Origin: a virus
Virus record (IMG/VR): IMGVR_UViG_3300030389_000247
Coordinates: 1 to 32,235 of that record
DNA length: 32,235 nucleotides
Strand: one strand, 5' to 3'
Below, in pieces: positions 16-30,874 of this stretch; the first letter of the stretch is position 1, and each line of letters begins with the position of its first letter. The position numbers and the translations under genes were made by a program. The notes under the pieces are model-generated. The model did no database searches. It saw nothing but the letters and a program-made list of their open reading frames with translations, and was not told the DNA's origin.

Positions 16-1161
16 ATGAGTAAAGCAGCAGAATTAGCAAAGATGGGTGAAGTCCTAACCAATAGTCAGATTGGTGGAAGACGCAACGTTGTAATAAATG
101 GTGAAATGAAAATATCACAAAGAAGTTCGTCAGCCACATCTATTACATCAACTGGTTATCATGCTTTAGATAGATTTGCATTGTTATATACAGATGCTGG
201 AACATGGACAATGTCACAGTCATCAACTACTCCAAATGGATTTGCTAATAGTTTAAAGTTAGATTGTACTTCAGCTAAATCTTCTTTAGCTTCAGACAGT
301 AGATTATTTTTACAAACAAAAATAGAGGGTCAAGATGTTCAACAATTTAAAAAAGGTACGTCTGATGCTGAACAATACACACTAAGTTTTCATGTTCGTT
401 CTAATAAAACTGGTACTTATCAAGTCAATATTGAAGATAATGATAATACAAGAATAGTAGGTTCAACTTATACAATAAGTTCGGCTAATACATGGGAAAA
501 AAAAGAGATTACTTTTCCAGCAGACACAACTGGTGCTTTTGCAGATGATAGTGGAGATAGTCTAGCTATAATGTGGGCATTAGTCGCAGGAACAGATAAC
601 TCATCAGGTGCAGTTCCTGCAACATGGGAAGCTAAAGTTAACACAGATAGAGGTGCAGGGTTAAATATTAATCTTGCAGATAACACGGATAATGAATGGT
701 ATATTACTGGCATTCAGTTAGAAGTCGGCTCTGCAGTGACCCCATTTGAGTATAGGTCATTTGATGAAGAGTTTTTACTCTGTCAACGCTATTGCACAGT
801 TTACAATGTAGGTGGAGACCAAGTGCATGATGAAAATTTGATTCACAATTCTGCTCCATTACCCGGAAGCTCTGGTCATGTTGATGTTGCAAATAGAGCA
901 GAGTGGTTTTTATCATACCCAATAAAAAGAGCAACACCAACAATAACTGTAACAAATCCAACTGAATTAAGATGGTTATCAACTGGTAATGTTGTTCAAA
1001 ATGGAACAAGTGACGTAACTTTTCCAGTTGGACTTGGTATTCAAAGAACAAATTGTTTTCAATCCGTAGCAGGTTCATTAACTACATCACATCATTGTGA
1101 CTATTGGGGTCATGATGGTGGTAGCACTTACGCTAGATTACTAATAGATTCGGAGTTATAA
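16..1161 (+). CDS. Tail fibre / receptor-binding protein
   Basis: A 381-residue protein, probably a distal tail fibre that contacts the host surface. The N-terminus (MSKAAELAKMGEVLTNSQI) resembles short virion-anchoring segments of other phage fibres. It is followed by GRRNVVINGEMKISQR, the typical opening of a phage jelly-roll carbohydrate-binding module, and by DRFAL. Around residues 235-260 the run ITGIQLEVGSAVTPFEYR, then FLLCQRY, matches the conserved end of this module in many phage and prophage fibres. The remaining C-terminal part (about 270-381) shows no recognisable motif and is likely the variable receptor-contacting part. GGAG lies seven bases before the ATG. The following two small genes are tightly coupled, as usual for fibre operons. 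The fold call is strong; the receptor is unknown. Confidence 0.85.
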   Translation: MSKAAELAKMGEVLTNSQIGGRRNVVINGEMKISQRSSSATSITSTGYHALDRFALLYTDAGTWTMSQSSTTPNGFANSLKLDCTSAKSSLASDSRLFLQTKIEGQDVQQFKKGTSDAEQYTLSFHVRSNKTGTYQVNIEDNDNTRIVGSTYTISSANTWEKKEITFPADTTGAFADDSGDSLAIMWALVAGTDNSSGAVPATWEAKVNTDRGAGLNINLADNTDNEWYITGIQLEVGSAVTPFEYRSFDEEFLLCQRYCTVYNVGGDQVHDENLIHNSAPLPGSSGHVDVANRAEWFLSYPIKRATPTITVTNPTELRWLSTGNVVQNGTSDVTFPVGLGIQRTNCFQSVAGSLTTSHHCDYWGHDGGSTYARLLIDSEL

Positions 1162-1365: not shown

Positions 1366-1599
1366 ATGGAAATAGATGCAATGTTATTTTGGAACATTAT
1401 CCTAACTATGGTCGTTGTACCATTCGGTTGGGCATTCAACAAGATGTTTGGCGAAGTAAAGAGATTACAGATACTACTAAACAAAACACGAGAAGAGTAT
1501 GCACGTAAAGATGATGTCAAAGAAGATATGCATGACATTATGGATGCAATGAAAAGATTAGAAGATAAACTAGATAAGATATTAATTGGAGCTAAATAG
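1366..1599 (+). CDS. Holin-like membrane protein with coiled coil
   Basis: A 77-residue protein with one hydrophobic segment at about residues 5-26 (WNIILTMVVVPFGWAF inside it), followed by a charged, heptad-patterned helix to the end (KRLEDKLDKILIG). This single-span plus coiled-coil plan resembles XhlA-type lysis accessory proteins and small holins, and the position after the tail fibre fits a lysis gene. No endolysin or spanin is visible nearby, so the lysis role is tentative; a membrane-anchored virion or assembly factor is an alternative. Its TAG stop shares one base with the GTG start of the next gene. Confidence 0.5.
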   Translation: MEIDAMLFWNIILTMVVVPFGWAFNKMFGEVKRLQILLNKTREEYARKDDVKEDMHDIMDAMKRLEDKLDKILIGAK

Positions 1600-3473
1600 T
1601 GGCAATATTCACAGGTTTTAAACCAACAGGATTACAAAAGATTGCTAATAAACTTGGATATGAAGGTTCATTAGATAACTTTGAAAACTACCTAGAGCAA
1701 AATCCTGAGAAGAAAAGACAAATGATTGTCTATGAAGAATCTGCAAAACAGATGGCTCGTGGTGGTGTTGTTAAAATGCAAGAGGGTGGTGATATACCTA
1801 CAGAAGAACAGCCATCTAACATACAAGATATGACACTTGAAAGAGCACAGACAGGTGCATTACCTGCAGGTGCAGTTACTACTCCTCAATTAACTTTACA
1901 AGAACAAGGACAAACTATTGATCCTTCAATAGGTGCAGTTGCAGGGGAAGCCAATGTAATACCCACTGTGGCACAGGCAGGTACACAACAAACAGGACAA
2001 CCTACTGTAACACCTGCAGCACAAGTAGACCCTAGATTATCCCAACCTGATATTCAAGGTGCAATAGCATCTAATCAAGCTGCTACAACAGATGTAAGTG
2101 ATAAGGCACAAATATTAGCTGCTCAACAAACTGCAAGTAGTGTAGCTAATTTAAGTGCTGCACAAGGTAATGCTATACTTATGGCAAGTCCACCACAACG
2201 TGAAATACGTGAAGGTGAATTAATAGACTCTGTTGCAAATGCAGAAAAAGCTAAAACTTTTACAGAGCAAATTGAAGCTGCAACCTCAACTGCTAGTGAT
2301 CAAGCCACTGTAGCAGGTCAGTTAGCAGGATTAACTGCAAACTTTGATGCAACAAATCCACCATCATGGGCAGCAGGAGCAATCAGAGGTGTTCAAGCAG
2401 TAATGCAACAAAGAGGTCTTGGTGCTTCTAGTATTGCAGGACAGGCACTTGTTCAGGCTGCAATGGAATCTGCACTACCTATTGCACAGGCAGATGCAAA
2501 TACTGTAAGAACATTTGAATTACAAAATTTATCTAACAGACAACAACGTGCTATGTTAGCTGCAGAACAAAGAGCTAGATTCATAGGGCAAGAGTTTGAT
2601 CAAGAGTTTCAAACAAGAGTTCAGAATGCTTCTAAGATAAGTGACATAGCAAATAGAAACTTTACTGCAGAACAACAAGTGGCATTAGAAAATAGTAGAA
2701 TAGCAAATACATTAAACCTACAAAATCTATCTAATAGACAAGCACTTGTATTAGCAGAGGCTTCTGCACTAACAGGATTAGATACAAGTAATCTAACTAA
2801 TAGACAACAAGCTGCAGTAGAAAACGCAAAAGCATTCTTGCAAGTAGACATGGCAAACTTATCTAATGAACAACAATCAGGTATGTTTAATATGCAGTCA
2901 TTAACTCAAAGTATATTAACAGATCAAGCTGCCCAAAATGCTGCAAGACAATTTAATGCTACATCACAAAATCAAGTAGATCAATTCTTTGCTAATTTAA
3001 GAAGTCAAGTAGAACAGTTTAATGCAACACAATCAAATGCACAAGATCAGTTTAATGCAGGTGAAGTAAATACATTGTCAAGATTTAATGCAGAGGTGAT
3101 GAATGCAAGAGATCAATTCAATGCACAAAATCAAATAGCTATAGCACAGAATAATGCAGTATGGAGAAGAGAGTTAGCCACTGCAGACACTGCTGCTATT
3201 AATCGTGCTAATGAATTGAATGCTAAAGCAGTTCTTGATATATCTAATGAGGCTTATGATGACTTATGGGCATTCTTTGCAGACACAATGGAGTGGGCAT
3301 GGAAGAGTGCAGAGAATGAGCAAGATAGAATTAATGCATTAGGTGTAGCAAATATAAGTAAAGAAGCACAACAATACACTGCAGAGCAAACTAAGAAAGC
3401 TGCAGGTTCAAGTGCATTAGGTAGTATGTTAGGCACATTAGGTGCTGCAGTTATTAGAGGACCTTTTGGATAA
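1599..3473 (+). CDS. Large repetitive Gln/Asn/Ala-rich virion protein
   Basis: A 624-residue protein of unknown function, starting at GTG within the upstream stop (TAGTG). The N-terminal 60 residues form a separate unit: FKPTGLQKIANKLGY, then YLEQNPEKKRQ, then the glycine pair motif MARGGVVKMQEGGD, a combination I recall from other marine phages. Residues about 80-300 are Gln/Thr/Ala-rich and probably disordered or helical. From about 305 the sequence is repetitive: NLSNRQQ-type units recur four or five times (307-425), then QFNA units recur at about 450-510. The C-terminus is Gly/Ala-rich (SSALGSMLGTLGAAV), like a membrane-active helix. It heads the block of large overlapping virion genes, so an internal or ejected protein is likely. 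There is no enzymatic motif. Confidence 0.6.
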   Translation: MAIFTGFKPTGLQKIANKLGYEGSLDNFENYLEQNPEKKRQMIVYEESAKQMARGGVVKMQEGGDIPTEEQPSNIQDMTLERAQTGALPAGAVTTPQLTLQEQGQTIDPSIGAVAGEANVIPTVAQAGTQQTGQPTVTPAAQVDPRLSQPDIQGAIASNQAATTDVSDKAQILAAQQTASSVANLSAAQGNAILMASPPQREIREGELIDSVANAEKAKTFTEQIEAATSTASDQATVAGQLAGLTANFDATNPPSWAAGAIRGVQAVMQQRGLGASSIAGQALVQAAMESALPIAQADANTVRTFELQNLSNRQQRAMLAAEQRARFIGQEFDQEFQTRVQNASKISDIANRNFTAEQQVALENSRIANTLNLQNLSNRQALVLAEASALTGLDTSNLTNRQQAAVENAKAFLQVDMANLSNEQQSGMFNMQSLTQSILTDQAAQNAARQFNATSQNQVDQFFANLRSQVEQFNATQSNAQDQFNAGEVNTLSRFNAEVMNARDQFNAQNQIAIAQNNAVWRRELATADTAAINRANELNAKAVLDISNEAYDDLWAFFADTMEWAWKSAENEQDRINALGVANISKEAQQYTAEQTKKAAGSSALGSMLGTLGAAVIRGPFG

Positions 3474-3709
3474 TGATTACAAACCCTTCAGCAAATATAT
3501 ATAATAAGTTTCTTAATTACAAAAGAATTACTAGAGATTTGGAAAACCAAGCACAAGCTCCTGAAACAAAAGGCTTGTTATCTAGAGATATGTCAATGAA
3601 AAAAAATATGAAGATGCCTCAAGAAAATGATCCATTTAATGAGGCTATGGATTTTTTTGAAGCAATTCAAAATGAAAGGTTAAATGGTAAAGAAGAAATA
3701 GAAACATGA
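3473..3709 (+). CDS. Small hypothetical virion-block protein
   Basis: A 78-residue charged protein, start overlapping the previous stop as TAATG and end overlapping the next start as ATGA. No family is recognised. It contains the internal motif KGLLSRDMSMKK (residues about 34-45), which resembles the GLM-x-R motifs at the C-termini of three neighbouring proteins. The C-terminal half is acidic and helical. The tight coupling on both sides supports its being a real gene of the virion block. Confidence 0.55.
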   Translation: MITNPSANIYNKFLNYKRITRDLENQAQAPETKGLLSRDMSMKKNMKMPQENDPFNEAMDFFEAIQNERLNGKEEIET

Positions 3710-4218
3710 GATACGGAAATAGAACAGAACCCATATTAGAAGCACCTATTCCGGGCATGGCTATGACTCATGAGGTTGGTGCAAGACCTTGGCAAACACC
3801 ACCACAATATCCAACTGTAAATAAAGCAGCACAATATTATGTGGTTAGTATGCAAGATGAATCATTTGTAGAACAAGCTATCAACTTGATGGAAACAGGT
3901 ATGCCTATCACATTGATTGCTAATAATATGCAACTGATGAGTGTTATGGAGGGCAAACATACTATTGATGTAGGTATGTTACTTATACCTGTTATTATGG
4001 AAATGCTTATGTTAATTGGAGACAGAGCAGGTATAAAATATGCGACAGGTATGGAAAGAGACAAAGAAATAGAATTAAAAGATTCTGCATCTGAAGCAGC
4101 GTTTTCTAGATTTCAAAAAGAATTAGATAAACCTGAGGTAGAAGATGTTGTTGTAGAAGAAGAAAAGGAAAAAGAAAAGCAAGAAGAACCTATGGGTTTA
4201 ATGGCTAGGAGAGTATAA
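3706..4218 (+). CDS. Conserved marine-phage virion-block protein
   Basis: A 170-residue protein. The N-terminal half carries a proline-rich signature, EAPIPGMAMTHEVGARPWQ, that I recall from several marine podovirus genomes, always near large internal proteins. Residues about 60-110 alternate hydrophobic and Met-rich helices (VGMLLIPVIMEMLMLIG), which could insert in or lie on a membrane. The tail is strongly acidic (EEEKEKEKQEE) and ends in PMGLMARRV, one of the recurrent GLM-x-R motifs. Start (ATGA) and end (TAATG) overlap both neighbours. The function is unknown; a structural or ejection-complex component is plausible from context. Confidence 0.6.
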   Translation: MRYGNRTEPILEAPIPGMAMTHEVGARPWQTPPQYPTVNKAAQYYVVSMQDESFVEQAINLMETGMPITLIANNMQLMSVMEGKHTIDVGMLLIPVIMEMLMLIGDRAGIKYATGMERDKEIELKDSASEAAFSRFQKELDKPEVEDVVVEEEKEKEKQEEPMGLMARRV

Positions 4219-5747
4219 TGGCAGAAAAAGAATCATCATTTTTAACTGATAGAAGTTTTGGTGGCAGATTTAAAAGAGCACTTGCAGTTGCTTTGCCTTC
4301 TATAGCTTTGGCAAAAGATAATCCGTATCTTGTAAAATCTTTATATGATAAAGAAGAAGAGTTTGGAAAACTAGACAGAGCAGAAAATAATGAATTAGTT
4401 AAAAGTGTTGTTAGCAATATTAGTGGAATAATTACAAAGAATAGAACAAAGAGAGAAAGTAGGATAGATAGTAATTTAGAGAGCCTAACTAAAATTAAAA
4501 ACCTATTTAAAAATGATAACTTAGATAATGCAGACATAGCTTTTATACATGATAGAGGATTGTCAAAAACATTTAATGATATTAAAAATGAATATTCTTT
4601 ATCTTCTATTAAACCTTTAGTAGAGAATATGAAGTCACAATCGGATACAAGTAGTGAAGACCCAAACACTACTAAAATTCCTAACATGACATTAAAAGAA
4701 TTAGCTACTGCAATGGCTCCAGCTGCAAAACGATTTGATATGGAGATGATGAATCTTCGTACTGCACCTGCATCAGGACCTATTACATCTTTTGTATCAG
4801 GTGAAATGTTTGCAGATGAAAGTGAAAAAGGTGTAGACATAACACCAAGAGTACAAAATATTCTAAAAACTTCAGATGTTAAGTTAGCAGAAGACGATGA
4901 AAAAACAAAAGAAATAAAAAGTTATTTAGACAGTCAAGACGTAATGCTAAGTGAATTAGGAAAAGAAGCACAAAGATTATCTGAACTGACAAGTACAGAC
5001 AAATTGCCTGAAAAGAAAATGGAATCTGAAATGGCTAAGAAAGTTGGTGCAGTGCTTGGTGTTACAGTAGATGTAGATGAAGTTAATAATACTGTTAAAT
5101 TTTTAACTACTAATATAAAACTTAAAAAAGCAATGCCAATCATAGTGCAAGAGTTAACTGCTCAAGCAAAGAAATTAAAACTAGACATGGCTAAAAAACA
5201 AGATGATCCAAGACTACTAACTAATCTTGATTCAATTAATTCTATATTTAAACAGAATACAACATTAACTGATGATGGATTTGATATTGCTAAACCGGGA
5301 AGTTATTTGTTTGAAGAACTAAAGAAAAGAGGATTAGTTACAGATAAAGGTGATATAGTAAAAGACCCTCAAAAAAAAGATAAAGATAAAGACAAAGATA
5401 GTGGAGCACCTAAAGTAGGAGAACCTAAAAAACCAAAAACTTTTGATGAATTACTCAAAGATTTAAAAGGAACAACTACTGCATCAACTTTAGGAAAGAA
5501 GACAATACTTCAAATGTTAAAAATAGAAAGACAAAAATATATTGATAGAATTAAAAAGTTAGATGCAAATAATCAAGCAAATGTTGCTGAAATATTTAGA
5601 AGAAGATATAGTAATGAAGGATTCTTAGAGATTGTAAAAGATAAATTAAAACAAAATAATATAAGCATGGGTCCTGCAACTATAGATTATTTTAAAAATA
5701 TATTAATAAATGACCCTGCCTTTGCTAATCCTTATGCAACTAATTAG
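4218..5747 (+). CDS. Large coiled-coil virion-block protein
   Basis: A 509-residue, Lys/Glu-rich, mostly helical protein with no recognised domain. A Lys/Asp-rich linker (about residues 380-400, KKDKDKDKDSG) separates a long N-terminal part from a C-terminal helical part. The N-terminus (SFGGRFKRALAVALPSIALA) is basic and hydrophobic and might be a membrane-active helix. It starts within the previous stop (TAATG). Size and position between a small conserved virion protein and a glycine-zipper protein of 1152 residues resemble the gp14-gp15-gp16 order of T7-like ejection proteins. That comparison is positional only; there is no visible sequence similarity. Confidence 0.55.
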   Translation: MAEKESSFLTDRSFGGRFKRALAVALPSIALAKDNPYLVKSLYDKEEEFGKLDRAENNELVKSVVSNISGIITKNRTKRESRIDSNLESLTKIKNLFKNDNLDNADIAFIHDRGLSKTFNDIKNEYSLSSIKPLVENMKSQSDTSSEDPNTTKIPNMTLKELATAMAPAAKRFDMEMMNLRTAPASGPITSFVSGEMFADESEKGVDITPRVQNILKTSDVKLAEDDEKTKEIKSYLDSQDVMLSELGKEAQRLSELTSTDKLPEKKMESEMAKKVGAVLGVTVDVDEVNNTVKFLTTNIKLKKAMPIIVQELTAQAKKLKLDMAKKQDDPRLLTNLDSINSIFKQNTTLTDDGFDIAKPGSYLFEELKKRGLVTDKGDIVKDPQKKDKDKDKDSGAPKVGEPKKPKTFDELLKDLKGTTTASTLGKKTILQMLKIERQKYIDRIKKLDANNQANVAEIFRRRYSNEGFLEIVKDKLKQNNISMGPATIDYFKNILINDPAFANPYATN

Positions 5748-5764
5748 ATGAGGTTTGCAATACC

Positions 5765-8700
5765 ATGCAATATTTTAAAGATTATAATCTTCTAGAATCC
5801 CAAGATCAAAATAAAGAAAACTTAATCGCAAATCAAAATTTTATCAACGATGCTTATTCCTTTTTAAAAAATAGAGAGGGATATAAACACTCTGATTTAG
5901 ACACAGTTGAAAAAGTTTATGATCAATTCCTAGAGCATTTTAGATACCAAAACGTAAATGAGGTCACTGCCATACGTGATCTAGAGTATGCACAAAATGC
6001 AAACCTTCAAGAGAAACAAGAATTTGCTAGACTAATTAATCTGTATGATAAAATGGAAGGAGATGGTTTTAACCTAGAAACTTTCAAAGATTATGCAGGT
6101 GGTATAGCTAGTGCTCCATCAACTATCATAGGACTACTTACAGGGGGTGCAGGTAAACTTGCAGCAGTGGGTGGTAATCAAGCTGCTAAACTAGGTATAC
6201 GTGCATTGTTAACAAGAGAGATAGGTAAGAGTGCTCTTAAAGGTGCAGCAGTAGAGGGTAGTATAGGTGCAGTACAAGCAGGTGCTCAAGAAGGCACAAA
6301 AGTAGAAGTAGGCTTACAAGATGAAGTAGACACAGGTAAAGTGGTAGGAACTGCTTTAATATCTGCAGGTGGTGGTGCAATATTAAATGCAGGAGCAGGT
6401 GCTTATCAAACAATGAAAGCTATCAAAGCAGATGAATTATTGACTGCATCAGAAGTAGCCACTAAAAAGATAGCAGATGAAGCAAGTAAAAAATCTAAAG
6501 CATTTTTAAAAGGTGTAAGAGAAGGTGAAGACACAGAGTTTTTAAATAAAATATTACAAGAGTTAACACCTGATACATATAAAATGACCAAAGATGGTTT
6601 AAAAAGAATAGCTAAAAGACCTAAACCAAAGATGAAACCTTTAGATGCAGAAAAAGTATCTGTAGGTAGAGAACTAGCAAAAGAAAAAGGATTAGAAAAA
6701 TTACCTATAGAATTTTTTGAGAACTTATCTTCTGCAGTTTTAAAAGTAAAAGACAAAATAAAATTAAGAAAAGGACAAAGAATAACCTCTGCCATATCAG
6801 ATGCTATTGGGGATAATAAATTAAAGTTTACTGAACTAAGCACTATTTTAAGAGATCATAATCTTTCTTACGATCAGTTTTCTCTAATATACTTAGCAGA
6901 TATATCTGATGCAGGTAGAACATTAGGAACACATGGCTTTCTAAAAAAACAATTAAGTCCTAATGCATCTCAAGCTACAGTTACTAAACTATTAAACGAT
7001 ATTCAAGAGCTAGAAAAAAGAGGTCTAACAAGAATAGACAAAGCAAAAGCTCTTGAAGTATTAAAGAATAAAAAAGAAAATGGATTACTAAGAGATTTAG
7101 ATAGACTAAGATTAGGATTAATGACTTCTCAACCTGCAACAACTATGCGTAACAATGGTAATGCTTTGTTTAGAGTTGTAGTAGATGCAGGTACACGTGC
7201 ATTTTATAATGTATTAAGAAGAAAAAATCCTTTTGATGGTACATTTGATGTAGCAAAATATATGCTAAATCCGTATGAAGCACAAGCAGTTAGAAATATA
7301 TTCTCTACTACGATGCCTGATAGTGCTTCTGTTTTATTTAGAGAAGCAGCAGATTTATCATCACAAACAGGTGGTGGTGCTTTAGCAAAAATAGGAACTA
7401 AAGCAAACTTTTTAAATACAATGTCTGATAACTTTTTTAAACAGGCAATGTTGACTGCATCATTAAGAAGAAGATTAGCAGATAATGGACAAGATTTAAT
7501 TGAAATTATTAAGCAGGGCAAATTTAATACAATAAGTAAAGATATATTAGAAGGCTCTATGCAAGATGCTCTTGAGTTTGTTTATCAAAAGTCTTTTAAA
7601 GGTGATGGATTTTTTAGTAAAGTTGCAAAGGGTACTATAGATGCTCATAGAAATGTCCCTTTTATAGTTTCCTCTGTATTACCTTTTCCAAGATTTGTAG
7701 CTAATCAAATGAAATTTTTATATGAGCATACTCCTTTACTTGGTTTATTAAATTTAGAAAAGATAGGAGTCAAAGGTGGTTATGTAAATGCTATAAAGAA
7801 TATGACTAAGGATGAGTATCAACAAAAAATAGCAAAACAACTTACAGGACTAATGATGCTTTCTACTGCTTATGCTTGGAGAAAAGAACAGATAGATGAT
7901 GATGGTAAACTAGGAACATATTGGTATGAGTTCAAAGATGACACAGGAAAAGTTGTAGATGGTAGACCTACATACGGACCTTTTGCACCTTATTTGTTAG
8001 CTACAGATATACTGTTAAGATATCAAATGAGTGATGAGAGAGGTAATAAAGTAAAGCTAACTGAAAATAATTTTTACTCACCTGCCACAGGATTATGGCA
8101 AGATTTGTATGAGAGATGGGGTGCAGATGGTAAGAAGATGACTGAGGTTATGAATAGTCCTAGGCAATATGGTCAAGATGCAATGCAATCTTTATTTGGT
8201 TCTTCTTTTAGAACAGGTTATGGCTATTGGGTTATTGATAAATTATTTGATGATGTCGCTGCAGGTGGTGAGGGAATTGTTGAAAAAGGATTTGCAGAGT
8301 TTGGAGCTAATCTTGTAAACACCTACACATTACCTGTTGCAGTATTAAAAGATGCCTACAGTCAATTTGACAAATTTTCTAGATATGTGCCTGAGACTAG
8401 AAAAGGAGACCCAAGAGGAGATATAAGTTTTTTTGAAATATTATATAATAGAGGCACTCGTGCTTTTCCTGATGTAGGACCTAACACTGCCATAGGTAGA
8501 TACTTTGGTGCGACAGAATATGATACACCTTTAAGAAATCCATTGAGATCAGGAGATGTAATCTCTCTAAATCCATTAGAAAAACAAATGTTTGGTTTGG
8601 GTAAACGACCTAGATTAAATACATTAGAAAGAGAAATGAGAGATTTAAATCTACAATACTATGACTTTTATAAAAAACTTCCTAATGAATTTATTGATAG

Positions 8701-9223
8701 AAAATTAAGAGAAGTTTTAAGTGGTGAAGAAACTGTCAGAAATTTAAGTGTAGTAATGCAACAAATAATTAATGATGATCCTCTATATGCAAGTAAAAAA
8801 TCTAAGGCAGAAAAAAGAAACTACTTAGTAACTCAACTAAGAACTAGAATATTGCCAAATGCAAAAGAGAAGGCATTAGATTTAGTAGAACTAGAAAGAG
8901 AAAAAGGATTATTAAATAAAGAAGAAGAGGAAAGTTTACCATATAGTTTAGTACAACTAATGGAATATAGAAGAATATCTTCTCCTGAAAAAGATTCTAT
9001 AAATGCAGAGTTTAGAAATGGATTACGTGATGGTTCATTTGTTATAGATGGACAAGAAAATTTAACAGAAAAAGAAATAGAAACTTTAAATGTAGAAAAT
9101 AGTAGAGATTTAACTTTAATAATAAAAAATACTAAGGCTCGTGAAAATATATTAGCATGGGCATTAAGTAGAAAAGGAACTGCTAAAGGTAAAATTAAAA
9201 AAGGATTAATGGGTAGAAACTAA
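5765..9223 (+). CDS. Giant internal virion (ejection) protein, glycine-zipper type
   Basis: A 1152-residue protein, the largest in the window. Residues about 105-220 form a long Gly/Ala zipper region (GGIASAPSTIIGLLTGGAG and later GGGAILNAGAGAY), typical of segments that insert in membranes during DNA ejection. Residues about 445-470 hold RLGLMTSQPATTMRNN, a motif I recall from large internal proteins of marine podoviruses. Two hydrophobic stretches follow near residues 635-660 and 685-705. I found no lysozyme or transglycosylase motif. The C-terminus ends GLMGRN, related to the GLM-x-R ends of neighbours. The ATG lies about nine bases after GAGG, and the stop overlaps the next start (TAATG). 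Role inferred from size, zipper and context. Confidence 0.65.
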   Translation: MQYFKDYNLLESQDQNKENLIANQNFINDAYSFLKNREGYKHSDLDTVEKVYDQFLEHFRYQNVNEVTAIRDLEYAQNANLQEKQEFARLINLYDKMEGDGFNLETFKDYAGGIASAPSTIIGLLTGGAGKLAAVGGNQAAKLGIRALLTREIGKSALKGAAVEGSIGAVQAGAQEGTKVEVGLQDEVDTGKVVGTALISAGGGAILNAGAGAYQTMKAIKADELLTASEVATKKIADEASKKSKAFLKGVREGEDTEFLNKILQELTPDTYKMTKDGLKRIAKRPKPKMKPLDAEKVSVGRELAKEKGLEKLPIEFFENLSSAVLKVKDKIKLRKGQRITSAISDAIGDNKLKFTELSTILRDHNLSYDQFSLIYLADISDAGRTLGTHGFLKKQLSPNASQATVTKLLNDIQELEKRGLTRIDKAKALEVLKNKKENGLLRDLDRLRLGLMTSQPATTMRNNGNALFRVVVDAGTRAFYNVLRRKNPFDGTFDVAKYMLNPYEAQAVRNIFSTTMPDSASVLFREAADLSSQTGGGALAKIGTKANFLNTMSDNFFKQAMLTASLRRRLADNGQDLIEIIKQGKFNTISKDILEGSMQDALEFVYQKSFKGDGFFSKVAKGTIDAHRNVPFIVSSVLPFPRFVANQMKFLYEHTPLLGLLNLEKIGVKGGYVNAIKNMTKDEYQQKIAKQLTGLMMLSTAYAWRKEQIDDDGKLGTYWYEFKDDTGKVVDGRPTYGPFAPYLLATDILLRYQMSDERGNKVKLTENNFYSPATGLWQDLYERWGADGKKMTEVMNSPRQYGQDAMQSLFGSSFRTGYGYWVIDKLFDDVAAGGEGIVEKGFAEFGANLVNTYTLPVAVLKDAYSQFDKFSRYVPETRKGDPRGDISFFEILYNRGTRAFPDVGPNTAIGRYFGATEYDTPLRNPLRSGDVISLNPLEKQMFGLGKRPRLNTLEREMRDLNLQYYDFYKKLPNEFIDRKLREVLSGEETVRNLSVVMQQIINDDPLYASKKSKAEKRNYLVTQLRTRILPNAKEKALDLVELEREKGLLNKEEEESLPYSLVQLMEYRRISSPEKDSINAEFRNGLRDGSFVIDGQENLTEKEIETLNVENSRDLTLIIKNTKARENILAWALSRKGTAKGKIKKGLMGRN

Positions 9224-11847
9224 TGGCTATAAGAGGATTGGAATTAGGAACTGAAACTGATAGAATGTTTGCCGATCAGGAACGTATGAGAAGAGAACGT
9301 GAAGCAGGTAAAACAGAACAGTTTGCTCAAGTAGAACAGATGATAGCAGAAGGAGCAAAGCCTATAACTATTAAGGATATAGGTTACTTTGGTTTATCTG
9401 TTGCTCCTGTAACAGGAGATGTGATAGCATTTAAAGATGCACCTGAAGATTATGAACGTGCATATGAATTAATTCAAGCAGGTTATGGCGAAAGAGATTT
9501 AATTAAATTAGGTCTAGGTAGTGCATATTCAGGACTTATCACACTAGGATTGATACCCGGAATAGGTTTCATATCTAGGATAGGTAAGAGTGCATTAAAA
9601 CAATTAGCTATTGACTCAATTAAAAAAGGAGATAATGCTAAAGGTGCAGAGATATTATTTAATACAAGTGATTTTGTTAAGAAAGAAATGGGAGATAAGT
9701 TAAACAAAAACTTTTCAACTAAAAGACAAAGTGAAATTAAAAAAATAAAAGAGCAATACTCAGGAAAAGCTAAAACTGAAATGCTTAAAAAATTAAGTAA
9801 TCCTACTAAAAAAGAAATAGTTTTTCATGGCACTGCTATGGGTCAGTATACTAAAAATCCTAAATTAGGTATGTATGCAGACAATGATTATTTAGCTACA
9901 GAATTAGCACAATCTTATGGTGATAGTTCTAAAATATTTATGGAGTTAGTTACTGATAATAATGATAATCCTATCATAGACATAGCTACGTATGGCATGA
10001 AAAAAACTTCAGATGAAGTAGATAAATATGCAGGAACTAAATTACGTTTTCCTATAATAGCTAAAGATATTAATGGTTCTCCTAAAGTATATAGTCAAGA
10101 GATATCATTAGATGTAAACAAGGAAGCAGGAGAGGTATATCTGAAAGGTGCTAAAGCTGCACGTAATAATTATGAAGGTGACACAATAGGTGTGGTAAAG
10201 TTAGCTGAAGTAGACAATAGAACTGATTTTCAAAAGAATGGATTATTTACTAATATGGGAGATGATGGTGCTCTTTTAGAGTACGAAGATATAGGATTCA
10301 ATCTAAATGAATATATGATTAGAGATGATAGAAGTGCTTTACTCAAAGCATTTAATTCTCCTAACTATGCATCTTATGATCAAGTAATGAAAGCAAATTT
10401 ACAGAAAGCATTTCCTTCAGGTAAAATTAAAGTAGAGAGAGTTGAGAATTACGTAGAGCAAGGAGAAGGTGCAGGTTTAGTTCTTACACCTAAAGACAAG
10501 CAAATAAAAACTTATAAAGAGGTAGATATAAATGAAGTTAAATTTGTAGGTGGTGGAGAGGAAAGAGAGATTATACTTTTAGATACACCTAGAGCAAATG
10601 AAAAAGGAGCTATGGTTGGAGAAAAACAATTATTGTCTTATTCTATAAGTAAAAATCAAAGTGATAAAAATTTAGTAGATTTAAGAGAGATAGAAGATGT
10701 GCTAACTAAAAAGAACAAGGCAGATATAAAAGAGTTAAAAAGTTACGATGAAAAATTTATAGATAAACTTACAACAAAAGGATTTGATAAGTTTGAAGAT
10801 GAGAGATTTCCACAGTTTGTGGATGAAACATCTTATGTAGGAATGGGAACTAGTAGAAAAACAGGAGCACATTCTGAGCTAGGAGAAAAAGCAGTATCAG
10901 GTTCATTTGATCCTCTCATGTCAAGTAGTCCTGCATTCACAACTCCGGGTGAGTACGGAGGTTTCAGTGATCTAGGGGTAGGTAGTGATCCTATGGGTAG
11001 AACCATAGAAAATTTAGTATATACGGAGATACCTTATAATAAATTTAAAAATATGACACCTGAAGATTACGAACAGATTGTAAATTTATATAAAGATGAC
11101 CCTAAACTTAGAATACAACTATTAAATAAATACAAAGGTGAGTTTGTCACATCTAAAGGAGAAGGAACTAAGCTACCAAAAAGCATACACACAGAGGCAG
11201 AGGTAGCCATGTTTAGTCCTGAACTAAAAACGTTTAAAAAGGTTACAGATGATCCTAAAATATTAGAAAGAGTTACTAAAGGTAATGAAGCCTTTGATAA
11301 AATGAAGGACATAGAAATGAAAATTGCAGGAATAGATTCAGGAAAACTAACAGGCAATAGAGTTGAACAACAGAAAGCCTACAATACTATAAGAGACTAT
11401 ATGAATGCAGGTATAGATATGGGTAAATACACAGGTACATATGGTGCAAGAGGTAGTTATGATGTATTCTTACAACAAAACATAATGGATGGTATGAAGT
11501 TTAATAGTTTAGTATCTCAGTTAGCTATCCAATTACCTAAAGGACAGAAGAAACGCAACATGAGAATACTCAGTAGAATATTAGACAATAAATTTGAAAC
11601 TACAACAGGTGCAGTTTCTAGAGTAAGACCTACTTATGAACAGATTGCAGAAGGTATAGCTGAAAAAGACTTTAGTGCTAAAAAAGTTATAAATGATTTG
11701 GGTAATACTTTAGATAAAGTAAAAGATAATTTAGTAGACTTCAAAAATGAAACAGGTTATATTGAAAAACTTTCTCCAAGACAAATAAAAGAACTTATAA
11801 TGGAAATCACACCAAAGTTAAATCGTGGTGGATTGATGACTCGGTAA
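9223..11847 (+). CDS. Internal virion protein with ADP-ribosyltransferase-like segment
   Basis: An 874-residue protein ending the late block. Residues about 50-125 are hydrophobic and glycine-rich (YSGLITLGLIPGIGFISRIG), suggesting a membrane-interacting helix. From residue 199, IVFHGTAMG, then MYADNDYLATELAQSYG, then NPIIDIATYG follow the strand pattern of ADP-ribosyltransferase (ART) domains in phage polyvalent proteins: H202 on strand 1, a Tyr-containing strand, then a beta strand with NP-I-I-D. A second stretch (about 538-675) has SYVGMGTSR, an SSSPAFTT loop and E658-A-E660 followed by VAMFSPELKTFKKV, resembling an R-S-E-x-E type ART end. Activity is unproven; both could be inactive folds. 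The C-terminus is RGGLMTR. Modification of host proteins after ejection is a possible role. Confidence 0.6.
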   Translation: MAIRGLELGTETDRMFADQERMRREREAGKTEQFAQVEQMIAEGAKPITIKDIGYFGLSVAPVTGDVIAFKDAPEDYERAYELIQAGYGERDLIKLGLGSAYSGLITLGLIPGIGFISRIGKSALKQLAIDSIKKGDNAKGAEILFNTSDFVKKEMGDKLNKNFSTKRQSEIKKIKEQYSGKAKTEMLKKLSNPTKKEIVFHGTAMGQYTKNPKLGMYADNDYLATELAQSYGDSSKIFMELVTDNNDNPIIDIATYGMKKTSDEVDKYAGTKLRFPIIAKDINGSPKVYSQEISLDVNKEAGEVYLKGAKAARNNYEGDTIGVVKLAEVDNRTDFQKNGLFTNMGDDGALLEYEDIGFNLNEYMIRDDRSALLKAFNSPNYASYDQVMKANLQKAFPSGKIKVERVENYVEQGEGAGLVLTPKDKQIKTYKEVDINEVKFVGGGEEREIILLDTPRANEKGAMVGEKQLLSYSISKNQSDKNLVDLREIEDVLTKKNKADIKELKSYDEKFIDKLTTKGFDKFEDERFPQFVDETSYVGMGTSRKTGAHSELGEKAVSGSFDPLMSSSPAFTTPGEYGGFSDLGVGSDPMGRTIENLVYTEIPYNKFKNMTPEDYEQIVNLYKDDPKLRIQLLNKYKGEFVTSKGEGTKLPKSIHTEAEVAMFSPELKTFKKVTDDPKILERVTKGNEAFDKMKDIEMKIAGIDSGKLTGNRVEQQKAYNTIRDYMNAGIDMGKYTGTYGARGSYDVFLQQNIMDGMKFNSLVSQLAIQLPKGQKKRNMRILSRILDNKFETTTGAVSRVRPTYEQIAEGIAEKDFSAKKVINDLGNTLDKVKDNLVDFKNETGYIEKLSPRQIKELIMEITPKLNRGGLMTR

Positions 11848-29259: not shown

Positions 29260-29484
29260 TTATCCTGCAAAGTGGTTTAGTGGTTTCAAAGGTATTGCCT
29301 TTTCAAAAGCAATGGTAAACTTGCCAAAGTGATACTGCTTAAATGTAGCACCCTCGTCAGTTTTAAACCACCCTCTAGATTTATCTTTTCTTAATCTAAA
29401 GAAACCTTTTTTATTGAAGACATTAAACCTTCTGCCTTTAGTTCCATCATTTAATGGTTTAGTAGCGATTGCAATTACAAACAT
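29260..29484 (-). CDS. First gene of leftward operon, small basic protein
   Basis: A 74-residue basic protein, predicted mostly beta (MFVIAIATKPLNDGTKGRRF, then GFFRLRKDKSRGWFKT, then KFTIAFEKA). No family recognised. A strong AAGGAG site seven bases before the ATG and the first position after the control region suggest early, efficient expression, as for phage host-takeover proteins. It ends 63 bases before the next gene's start, enough for the separate promoter at 29224-29252. Confidence 0.55.
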   Translation of the reverse strand: MFVIAIATKPLNDGTKGRRFNVFNKKGFFRLRKDKSRGWFKTDEGATFKQYHFGKFTIAFEKAIPLKPLNHFAG

Positions 29485-29510
29485 AGTTATACTCCTTATA
29501 TATAAGTTAG

Positions 29511-29592
29511 CAAGGTTGTTGTGTGTATATTATCCTCGTCAAGTCTTTACACTATAATAGACGATTACTGATCACTCCAACAACCTTGTTGG
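29511..29592 (-). promoter_or_regulatory. Leftward operon promoter region with inverted repeats
   Basis: A perfect 11-bp inverted repeat, CAAGGTTGTTG (29511-29521) and CAACAACCTTG (29578-29588), brackets 56 bases. The right arm is part of a 16-bp palindrome, CCAACAACCTTGTTGG (29577-29592). On the minus strand a moderate promoter, TTGTTG (29583-29578), 18 bases, TATTAT (29559-29554), overlaps that arm. The other arm lies just upstream of the first gene's ribosome site. Two operator-like copies of this kind could loop DNA. Confidence 0.4.
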
Positions 29593-29648
29593 GTATTATA
29601 CCCTAGTATAACAGGGTAAACAGGGTATAATAAAAAGATATCATACCC
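29591..29648. repeat. Array of GGGTA/TACCC half-sites
   Basis: Five copies of GGGTA or its complement lie within 58 bases: a 13-bp perfect palindrome GGGTATTATACCC (29591-29603), two direct copies ACAGGGTA (29611-29618 and 29620-29627, 9-bp period), and ATACCC (29643-29648). More isolated copies occur at 29735, 30531, 30647 and 30710. A binding array for a regulator or replication initiator is the likeliest reading. Confidence 0.45.
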
Positions 29649-29794
29649 TATTTAGATATTAAACTTCATCATACGATTATAATAAAATAATTTTTAAACG
29701 AATAAAATTTATTCTCCAAGTAAAACTTGTTTTATACCCTTAAAATTTTTACGTATGGTATAGTAATGTAGATTTTTCCTCAGTATTTTTCAAC

Positions 29795-30125
29795 CTTTGA
29801 ACGTCACCCAACTTGGTTATTAAGACGTGGCAGACTAGACAACACACAAAACTAGTCTCTTTATTTTTTCTCGCACCTCTAGCACTCGTTGCCACCCTAG
29901 GATTTCTCTAGTCGCACTTCTCATGTCTTTTACAAGTTACACTTGGTCGCTTGTATAGTGTCATAAGGTTACCATTAGATTGGCGTACCTAGTTAGCTCA
30001 CGTCTCGCCCACGTATGGCTAGATATTCGCATCTATCGTCTAGTGAATTTGCACTTGATAGGTTCAGTTTAAAGTCTGCACTTGCACCATTTTTTTAAAG
30101 GGTTGTCGTTTCCCTTGATTTTTAT
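29795..30125 (+). ncRNA. Candidate structured non-coding RNA
   Basis: A GC-richer block (104 of 240 bases G+C at 29821-30060) in otherwise very AT-rich non-coding DNA. Helices visible in the plus strand: ACGTC/GACGT near its start, GTGGC (29827-29831) with GCCAC (29891-29895), enclosing AGACTAG (29832-29838) with CTAGTCT (29852-29858), which would stack directly, TACAAG (29931-29936) with CTTGTA (29950-29955), and GATA/TATC near 30022-30037. A terminator-like hairpin AAGGG/CCCTT followed by a T-run ends it (30098-30125). An extended -10, TGGTATAGT (29756-29764), could start it. No known RNA family recognised; strand inferred from the terminator. Confidence 0.4.
30098..30125 (+). terminator. 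Terminator-like hairpin
   Basis: AAGGG (30098-30102) pairs with CCCTT (30112-30116) around a nine-base loop, followed by GATTTTTAT. On the minus strand the hairpin is followed by A-rich sequence, so it would act only rightward, after the GC-richer block. Confidence 0.4.
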
Positions 30126-30840
30126 GTTAAACACTTTTTTGAATATTGCAAGTTTTTTTTTAACTTTATGTTTTTAAGATATCGTTGTTATAACTGTTAC
30201 TTAAAAACTGAGTTTAAAACTTTGTGTCATGAGCGATTTATAAGACTTAACTTTTTAAGGTGCTTATAAAAAGACAGTTTGTAAACTGTAATAAACTCTT
30301 TTTAAAAACTTGTTAAACAATTTTGTGTTCAACGATTATTGTTATAGCATTAAATAAAAAATTAAATCAACAAAAAAATAAAAAAAATTATAAGTGATTG
30401 TTTTTATTGAATATTTTTTTAGAATATTATTTGATATTAGATTATATGAGAACGAAACGTGAACAAATTTTTTTTTTATATATATAGTATGCATAATTTT
30501 ATAGACGAATAATGTTTATAAACAATTTATGGGTATATCTTGGCAATATTTACAATTTTAAAAGGTAACTGATGAATAAACAGTTAATAAAATTATAAAA
30601 AATGTAGTAATATCAATATGTTAGCAATAAATAAAAGTATTATTTAGGGTAAAATAGTAAAAAAATAAAAAAATAGTGTAGAAAAGTAGAACAAAACATG
30701 AACAAGGTAGGGTATAGCCACAGCCATGCCACCCGGTACAGTACGTATGTACACAGAAATACACAGATGGGAAAAATCAACTGTTAACTACTTAGGCAAA
30801 CTGTACCATTTAAGTGTCAAGTATAATATTTTTTAAATTT
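30126..30840. other. AT-rich non-coding region, possible origin
   Basis: No credible gene in either strand. G+C is 51 of 300 bases at 30361-30660. It holds a 16-bp palindrome ACAGTTTGTAAACTGT (30274-30289), an imperfect 18-bp direct repeat (16 of 18 identical; 30449-30466 and 30688-30705, AGAAC-rich), a TAACTG/CAGTTA hairpin near 30566, and an inverted repeat GGTACAGT/ACTGTACC (30735-30742, 30800-30807). Easily melted DNA with repeats fits a replication origin, but no perfect DnaA box was seen. Confidence 0.35.
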
Positions 30841-30845
30841 AGGTA

Positions 30846-30874
30846 TTGACAAAACTTAAAAATTCTGGTATAAT
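30846..30874 (+). promoter_or_regulatory. Consensus rightward sigma70 promoter
   Basis: TTGACA (30846-30851), exactly 17 bases, then TATAAT (30869-30874), preceded by TG at the extended -10 position (TGGTATAAT). Both hexamers are perfect. Transcription should start near 30881 and serve the rightward genes from 31007. The match implies recognition by the host's housekeeping polymerase, probably early or strong, unless repressed. Confidence 0.85.

Follow-up and report, generated by a model that had tools for sequence, protein, structure and literature searches.

A predicted two-domain non-coding RNA of about 500 nt in the divergent gap of some HMO-2011-type marine phages

Introduction

HMO-2011-type phages have been described as a marine virus group that is both dominant and widespread (PMC9038755); two published descriptions of these phages that we searched mention no non-coding RNA. 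The stretch of DNA analysed here (the window, 32,235 nucleotides) comprises bases 1–32235 of a 35145-base viral contig. Judged by its genes, the source is a marine phage of the HMO-2011 type: the DNA polymerase shares 62% identity with the counterpart in Puniceispirillum phage HMO-2011, and the gene plan matches that of HMO-2011, in which one arm carries the polymerase, helicase, integrase, and ribonucleotide reductase genes and the right arm is divergent. The two divergent arms are separated by a gap of 1.5 kb. A reading of the letters alone (the sequence-only reading) had singled out a block within this gap, at 29795–30125, as a structured RNA or a structured cis element such as an origin or attachment site. 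Which of the two is encoded here, on which strand, and how far does it extend?

Results

Conservation of the block among uncultured relatives

Analysis of the gap confirmed the two compositional features that had drawn attention to it. The G+C content is 40–43% (200-base windows, 29800–30099) versus 15–19% at 30300–30700, and 29485–30341 carries no ORF of at least 50 aa on either strand. The folding energy is ordinary (z = 0.05 and −0.23 for the predicted minimum free energies of the two strands), and because it is unremarkable on both strands, the evidence for an RNA is comparative, not energetic.

With the 97-aa right-arm protein as query, we identified two relatives, L220 and L222, in which the block aligns at 75–76% identity over about 365 bases. 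A three-sequence profile (window, L220, and L222) detected diverged homologues in L252 (E = 2.6e-8) and L282 (E = 1.5e-4), again in the same location. Among these five sequences, the stem of a hairpin designated P2 varies (GACTAG/CTAGTC, GGCTAG/CTAGCC, and GGTTAG/CTAACC) and its loop is kept. Scanning IMG/VR with a P2 hairpin pattern tolerant of stem changes returned 31 contigs, 28 of which were accepted as members. The other three (L305, L317, and L326) were regarded as chance matches, having no synteny, a fit of P2 alone to the model, or no match, and a pattern scan of a genome collection gave five chance matches to the P2 loop alone. A more diverged lineage is formed by L268, L299, L338, L339, and L340. 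The RNA-bearing set comprises about 34 contigs, window included, and all relatives are uncultured. The homologues share place and orientation, about 1.6–1.8 kb upstream of the gene for the 97-aa right-arm protein; conservation in relatives, on which the sequence-only reading had staked its proposal, is thus evident. A search of phage-isolate DNA with the gap and the RNAs of two relatives as queries found no homologue of the block, and the RNA model did not match HMO-2011, CRP-345, CRP-1, CRP-2, or CRP-603.

Fold and covariation

We consider it highly probable (roughly 0.88) that the locus encodes a real structured RNA on the minus strand. The predicted features are listed below in RNA order, with window coordinates.

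29616–30117, minus strand: structured non-coding RNA gene of about 500 nt, both ends predicted, defined by position conservation, covariation, and a promoter-like site at its 5' edge; order 5' to 3': domain I, P2, P1, domain II, terminal hairpin P12
30124–30151, minus strand: promoter-like site, TTGCAA (30146–30151), 16 nt, TAACAT (30124–30129); a weak version, whereas relatives have a consensus-like one
30099–30115, minus strand: 5' hairpin P9, with covarying stems AAGGG/CCCUU, AGAC/GUCU, and AGAG/CUCU and a kept ACGA loop
30033–30083, minus strand: hairpins P9b (30072–30083) and P10 (30033–30061), supported by alignment A7
29877–30024, minus strand: core of domain I, with covariation counted in 22 and in 10 sequences
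30018–30024 with 29877–29883, minus strand: P4, closing helix of domain I, with the top pair of the unguided covariation ranking
30000–30014, minus strand: hairpin P5 of domain I, within the domain I covariation counts
29988–29997 with 29888–29901, minus strand: long-range helix P6 of domain I, within the same counts
29962–29967 with 29920–29925, minus strand: helix P7 of domain I, within the same counts
29932–29954, minus strand: hairpin P8 of domain I, within the same counts
29941–29946, minus strand: P8 loop CCAAGU, first kissing partner, kept with the P2 motif and co-varying with the domain II loop
29833–29857, minus strand: hairpin P2 with loop UUUUGUnnnUUGU, found by the pattern scan in 28 phage contigs, with a strand-diagnostic G.U at pair 5
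29801–29828, minus strand: hairpin P1 with a covarying outer stem
29670–29757, minus strand: domain II, closed by P11, with covariation in alignment A6 and in group B
29752–29757 with 29670–29675, minus strand: P11, CAUACG with CGUAUG, closing domain II
29716–29721, minus strand: domain II loop ACUUGG, second kissing partner, complementary to 29941–29946 with compensatory changes
29622–29649, minus strand: P12, AGGGUAU/AUACCCU, a hairpin resembling a terminator at the 3' end of the RNA, seen in the window and in relatives
29260–29484, minus strand: first left-arm ORF after the RNA (74 aa, from the ORF list), with a TATAAT box at 29595–29600

The block as proposed covers most of this RNA, but the feature is larger, reaching about 180 nt further left, where the stretch 29650–29790 holds a second domain. 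Both complementary word pairs that had been pointed out are present. AGACTAG/CTAGTCT is the conserved hairpin P2, while GTGGC/GCCAC is not conserved among relatives, and its GCCA is part of a different helix, P6. The supposed terminator at the right end (AAAGGG..CCCTT) proved to be the 5' hairpin P9 of the minus strand, and a strict terminator scan gave it no score. In L220, P12 is formed by GGGUUACA/UGUAACCC followed by UCUUU; this hairpin is present in many members and missing from some relatives.

Alignments were made with MAFFT from sequence alone, and the controls were the structure slid by 1–3 columns and shuffles. In the core of 39 pairs and 22 sequences (A2), 85.6% of cells are paired, compared with 30–46% in the slid control, which flatters a structure derived from the same sequences, and 72.9 ± 0.8% in shuffles; none of 500 shuffles reaches the observed value, although these values are not probabilities because the sequences are related. 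Double changes occur in 24 of the 39 core pairs, P2 included, and the same alignment contains 124 double-change cells versus 45.4 ± 6.0 in shuffles, counts that are not independent events, as several sequences are close relatives. In A2, the group A sequences are out of register by one column at P4, P6, and P7, an error that lowers these counts and does not raise them. The shift is corrected in A4 (the window's own group, 10 sequences), where 95.8% of cells are paired versus 33–47% when slid, with double changes in 11 pairs. Pairing is similarly high in the 5' hairpins (A7, 98.2% of cells versus 32–53% slid), in P1 and domain II of the window's group (A6, 94.0% versus 29–44% slid, with double changes in 14 of 21 pairs), and in domain II of a second group, group B (A5, 95.8% versus 18–42% slid). 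The outer stem of P1, ACGUC/GACGU in the window versus UACCC/GGGUA and UUCCC/GGGAA in relatives, is 100% paired. In an unguided covariation ranking, in which many other top-ranked pairs mirror between-group differences, a P4 pair ranked first and further pairs of P4, P5, and P7–P8 ranked high. At the level of covariation, these comparisons show a fold of two domains in which many helices covary. Conservation and covariation among relatives are both strong and support the structured RNA that the sequence-only reading had suspected.

Strand and predicted promoter

The pattern used to collect members treated A-C and G-T equally at the variable P2 pairs. At P2 pair 5, plus-strand A-C occurs in many members and G-T never, which corresponds to G.U on the minus strand. 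Counted on the minus strand across the entire structure, wobble cells are G.U in 95 cases versus A.C in 34 (A2), and 39 versus 7 (A4). On this pattern we reject a plus-strand transcript terminated by the right-hand hairpin, and the covariation, being strand-specific, exceeds both the shuffled and the slid controls. Upstream of P2 by 240–300 nt, a minus-strand TTGACN-16..18-TANNNT motif is found at 17 of 27 loci versus 0.04 expected from shuffles, and the site in the window, TTGCAA-16-TAACAT, is weak and falls outside this strict pattern. A promoter of its own is strongly suggested for the RNA by this motif prediction.

Contact between the two domains

Comparison of the loops revealed that CCAAG in the P8 loop and CUUGG in the domain II loop are found in all P2-motif members with domain II sequence in hand. 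A sixth pair co-varies (CCAAGG with CCUUGG, CCAAGU with ACUUGG) and is missing in four exceptions, L222, L316, L321, and L315. Within the diverged lineage, the two loops read CCUAGUG and CACUAGG in L268, L299, and L338, and CCAAGUG and CACUUGG in L339 and L340; A-U has been completely exchanged for U-A across a distance of about 170 nt between the loops. Because the complementary loops change together, a predicted loop-loop (kissing) contact between domain I and domain II, within one molecule or between copies, is well supported.

Distribution and downstream genes

The gaps fall into two classes: those of about 650–1090 nt are RNA-free and followed by an ORF of ~180–230 aa, and those of about 1400–1690 nt are nearly all RNA-bearing. 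The short-gap HMO-2011-type phages (HMO-2011, CRP-345, CRP-1, CRP-2, and CRP-603) have the same genome plan as the window. In short-gap relatives, unlike the RNA-bearing phages, an ORF of ~200 aa comes directly after the gap. When presence of the RNA is mapped onto a tree of two right-arm proteins that includes only loci with sufficient sequence upstream, 10 changes are required, at least 6 of which are forced by well-supported branches. As traced on this tree, the distribution is patchy, via loss or exchange, and the RNA is an accessory module that was repeatedly gained or lost. The majority of sampled HMO-type phages are without the RNA, which is therefore not essential to the group.

The first ORF after the RNA belongs to a 117–126-aa family in 14 loci (L222, L252, L306, and 11 others), to a 74/108-aa family in the window, L220, and L325, and to a 71-aa family in L329, L268, and L299. 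The 117–126-aa family has the sequence pattern YWKQSTGLTGQNL... KASR..ARQ.K.EFG. Searches of the downstream ORFs against Pfam and PHROGs gave no meaningful match. The interval between RNA and ORF contains a separate sigma70-like promoter in 14 of 26 loci versus 0.86 expected, and the window does not belong to these 14.

We propose that host RNA polymerase would transcribe the RNA as an independent transcript, ending near P12 or in the U-rich stretch 3' of P11. The folded RNA would be a trans-acting structural RNA that works singly, as an oligomer, or together with a protein of the host or the phage, and would not be a controller of the next gene. Action in trans is favoured, not decisively, because the RNA persists whichever of three unrelated proteins the next gene encodes and because a separate promoter often precedes that gene; on balance we regard it as probable.

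The main competitor is a cis-acting 5' leader (an attenuator, an antiterminator, or a protein- or ligand-responsive element) of the left-arm early operon. The RNA is co-oriented with the first left-arm ORF and directly upstream of it, about 180–350 nt off, and where P12 is missing read-through would be possible. However, the ORF has a sigma70-like promoter of its own at the loci counted above, the downstream gene is not a constant family but one of at least three unrelated ORFs, and at about 500 nt, with two docked domains, the RNA is large for a leader. Such a leader is unlikely.

Much less likely still is a DNA element with cruciform-forming repeats, such as a replication origin or an attachment or packaging site. 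The block lies in a divergent gap, a usual location of origins, and the phage encodes a tyrosine integrase; but the paired columns accept G.U in one orientation, the helices are nested and long-range with docking loops, and RNA-free phages retain the neighbouring elements E1–E3 (see below), which are better origin candidates. Between the two options first put forward, an RNA is favoured over a DNA element by both the G.U pattern and the promoter-like site on the minus strand.

Comparison with known RNAs

In size and complexity the RNA is comparable to RNase P, tmRNA, 6S, group I introns, GOLLD, and ROOL, yet a diverged member of one of these families is very improbable, as searches with Rfam 15 and ARAGORN returned no match to it. 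Rfam 15 gave no match for the window at gathering thresholds or for the gap up to E = 5. Among 13 RNA-bearing relatives the sole match was a tRNA elsewhere (L323), and among four further members it was a snoRNA outside the RNA (E = 0.7). ARAGORN found 0 tRNA or tmRNA genes in the 32 kb window and no tRNA-like domain, and cmscan with the Rfam 15 covariance models of GOLLD/ROOL, RNase P, 6S, and group I introns matched neither the window nor the relatives. The initial judgement that the block is not a tmRNA, RNase P, 6S, tRNA, or group I intron agrees with these searches. By the same comparisons, the RNA is a new, previously uncatalogued family of about 500 nt carried by some HMO-2011-type marine phages.

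GOLLD and ROOL are large ornate RNAs of phages and prophages, often located near tRNA islands (PMC12286853). The RNA described here resembles them in being phage-encoded, large, and multi-helix, in having kissing loops conserved by covariation, and in originating from metagenomic DNA (PMC12286853). It differs in length (about 500 nt versus about 660 to over 800), in matching no Rfam model, and in having no tRNA island nearby. A further trait of GOLLD and ROOL is the RNA-only homo-oligomer (nanocage). Among known RNAs, GOLLD and ROOL are the most similar by these features, and the new RNA is not a member of either family. The phi29-type pRNA is likewise a phage RNA with loop-loop contacts, but is far shorter, with loops that join one copy to another on a packaging motor; the new RNA differs from it also in having no Rfam match.

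It is doubtful, though conceivable, that the RNA founds another type of large RNA assembly in phages through CCAAG/CUUGG docking between copies. If so, an RNA-only or RNA-protein particle would be built during infection of abundant marine bacteria. A covarying RNA of ~500 nt with an interdomain kissing contact would represent an unexplained function in a dominant marine phage group.

Other features of the phage genomes

Three large right-arm proteins (624, 509, and 1152 aa) encoded within 1599–11847 of the window have no PHROG match, and an 874-aa right-arm protein from the same interval has no tblastn match among phage records. To the right of the RNA, three elements, E1–E3 (30265–30807), are common to HMO-2011, CRP-345, and CRP-1 with near-constant spacing. 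E2 (30564–30587) forms a hairpin, and at least 120 viral stretches contain its pattern. The region is a candidate origin or second RNA. The E2 copy of HMO-2011 (NC_021864.1, about 53761–53784) lies inside annotated gp72 and overlaps gp73, and these two annotations may be spurious genes. At the head of the right arm, a conserved stretch of the window carries a perfect TTGACA-17-TATAAT promoter with a TG extension (30846–30874, plus strand).
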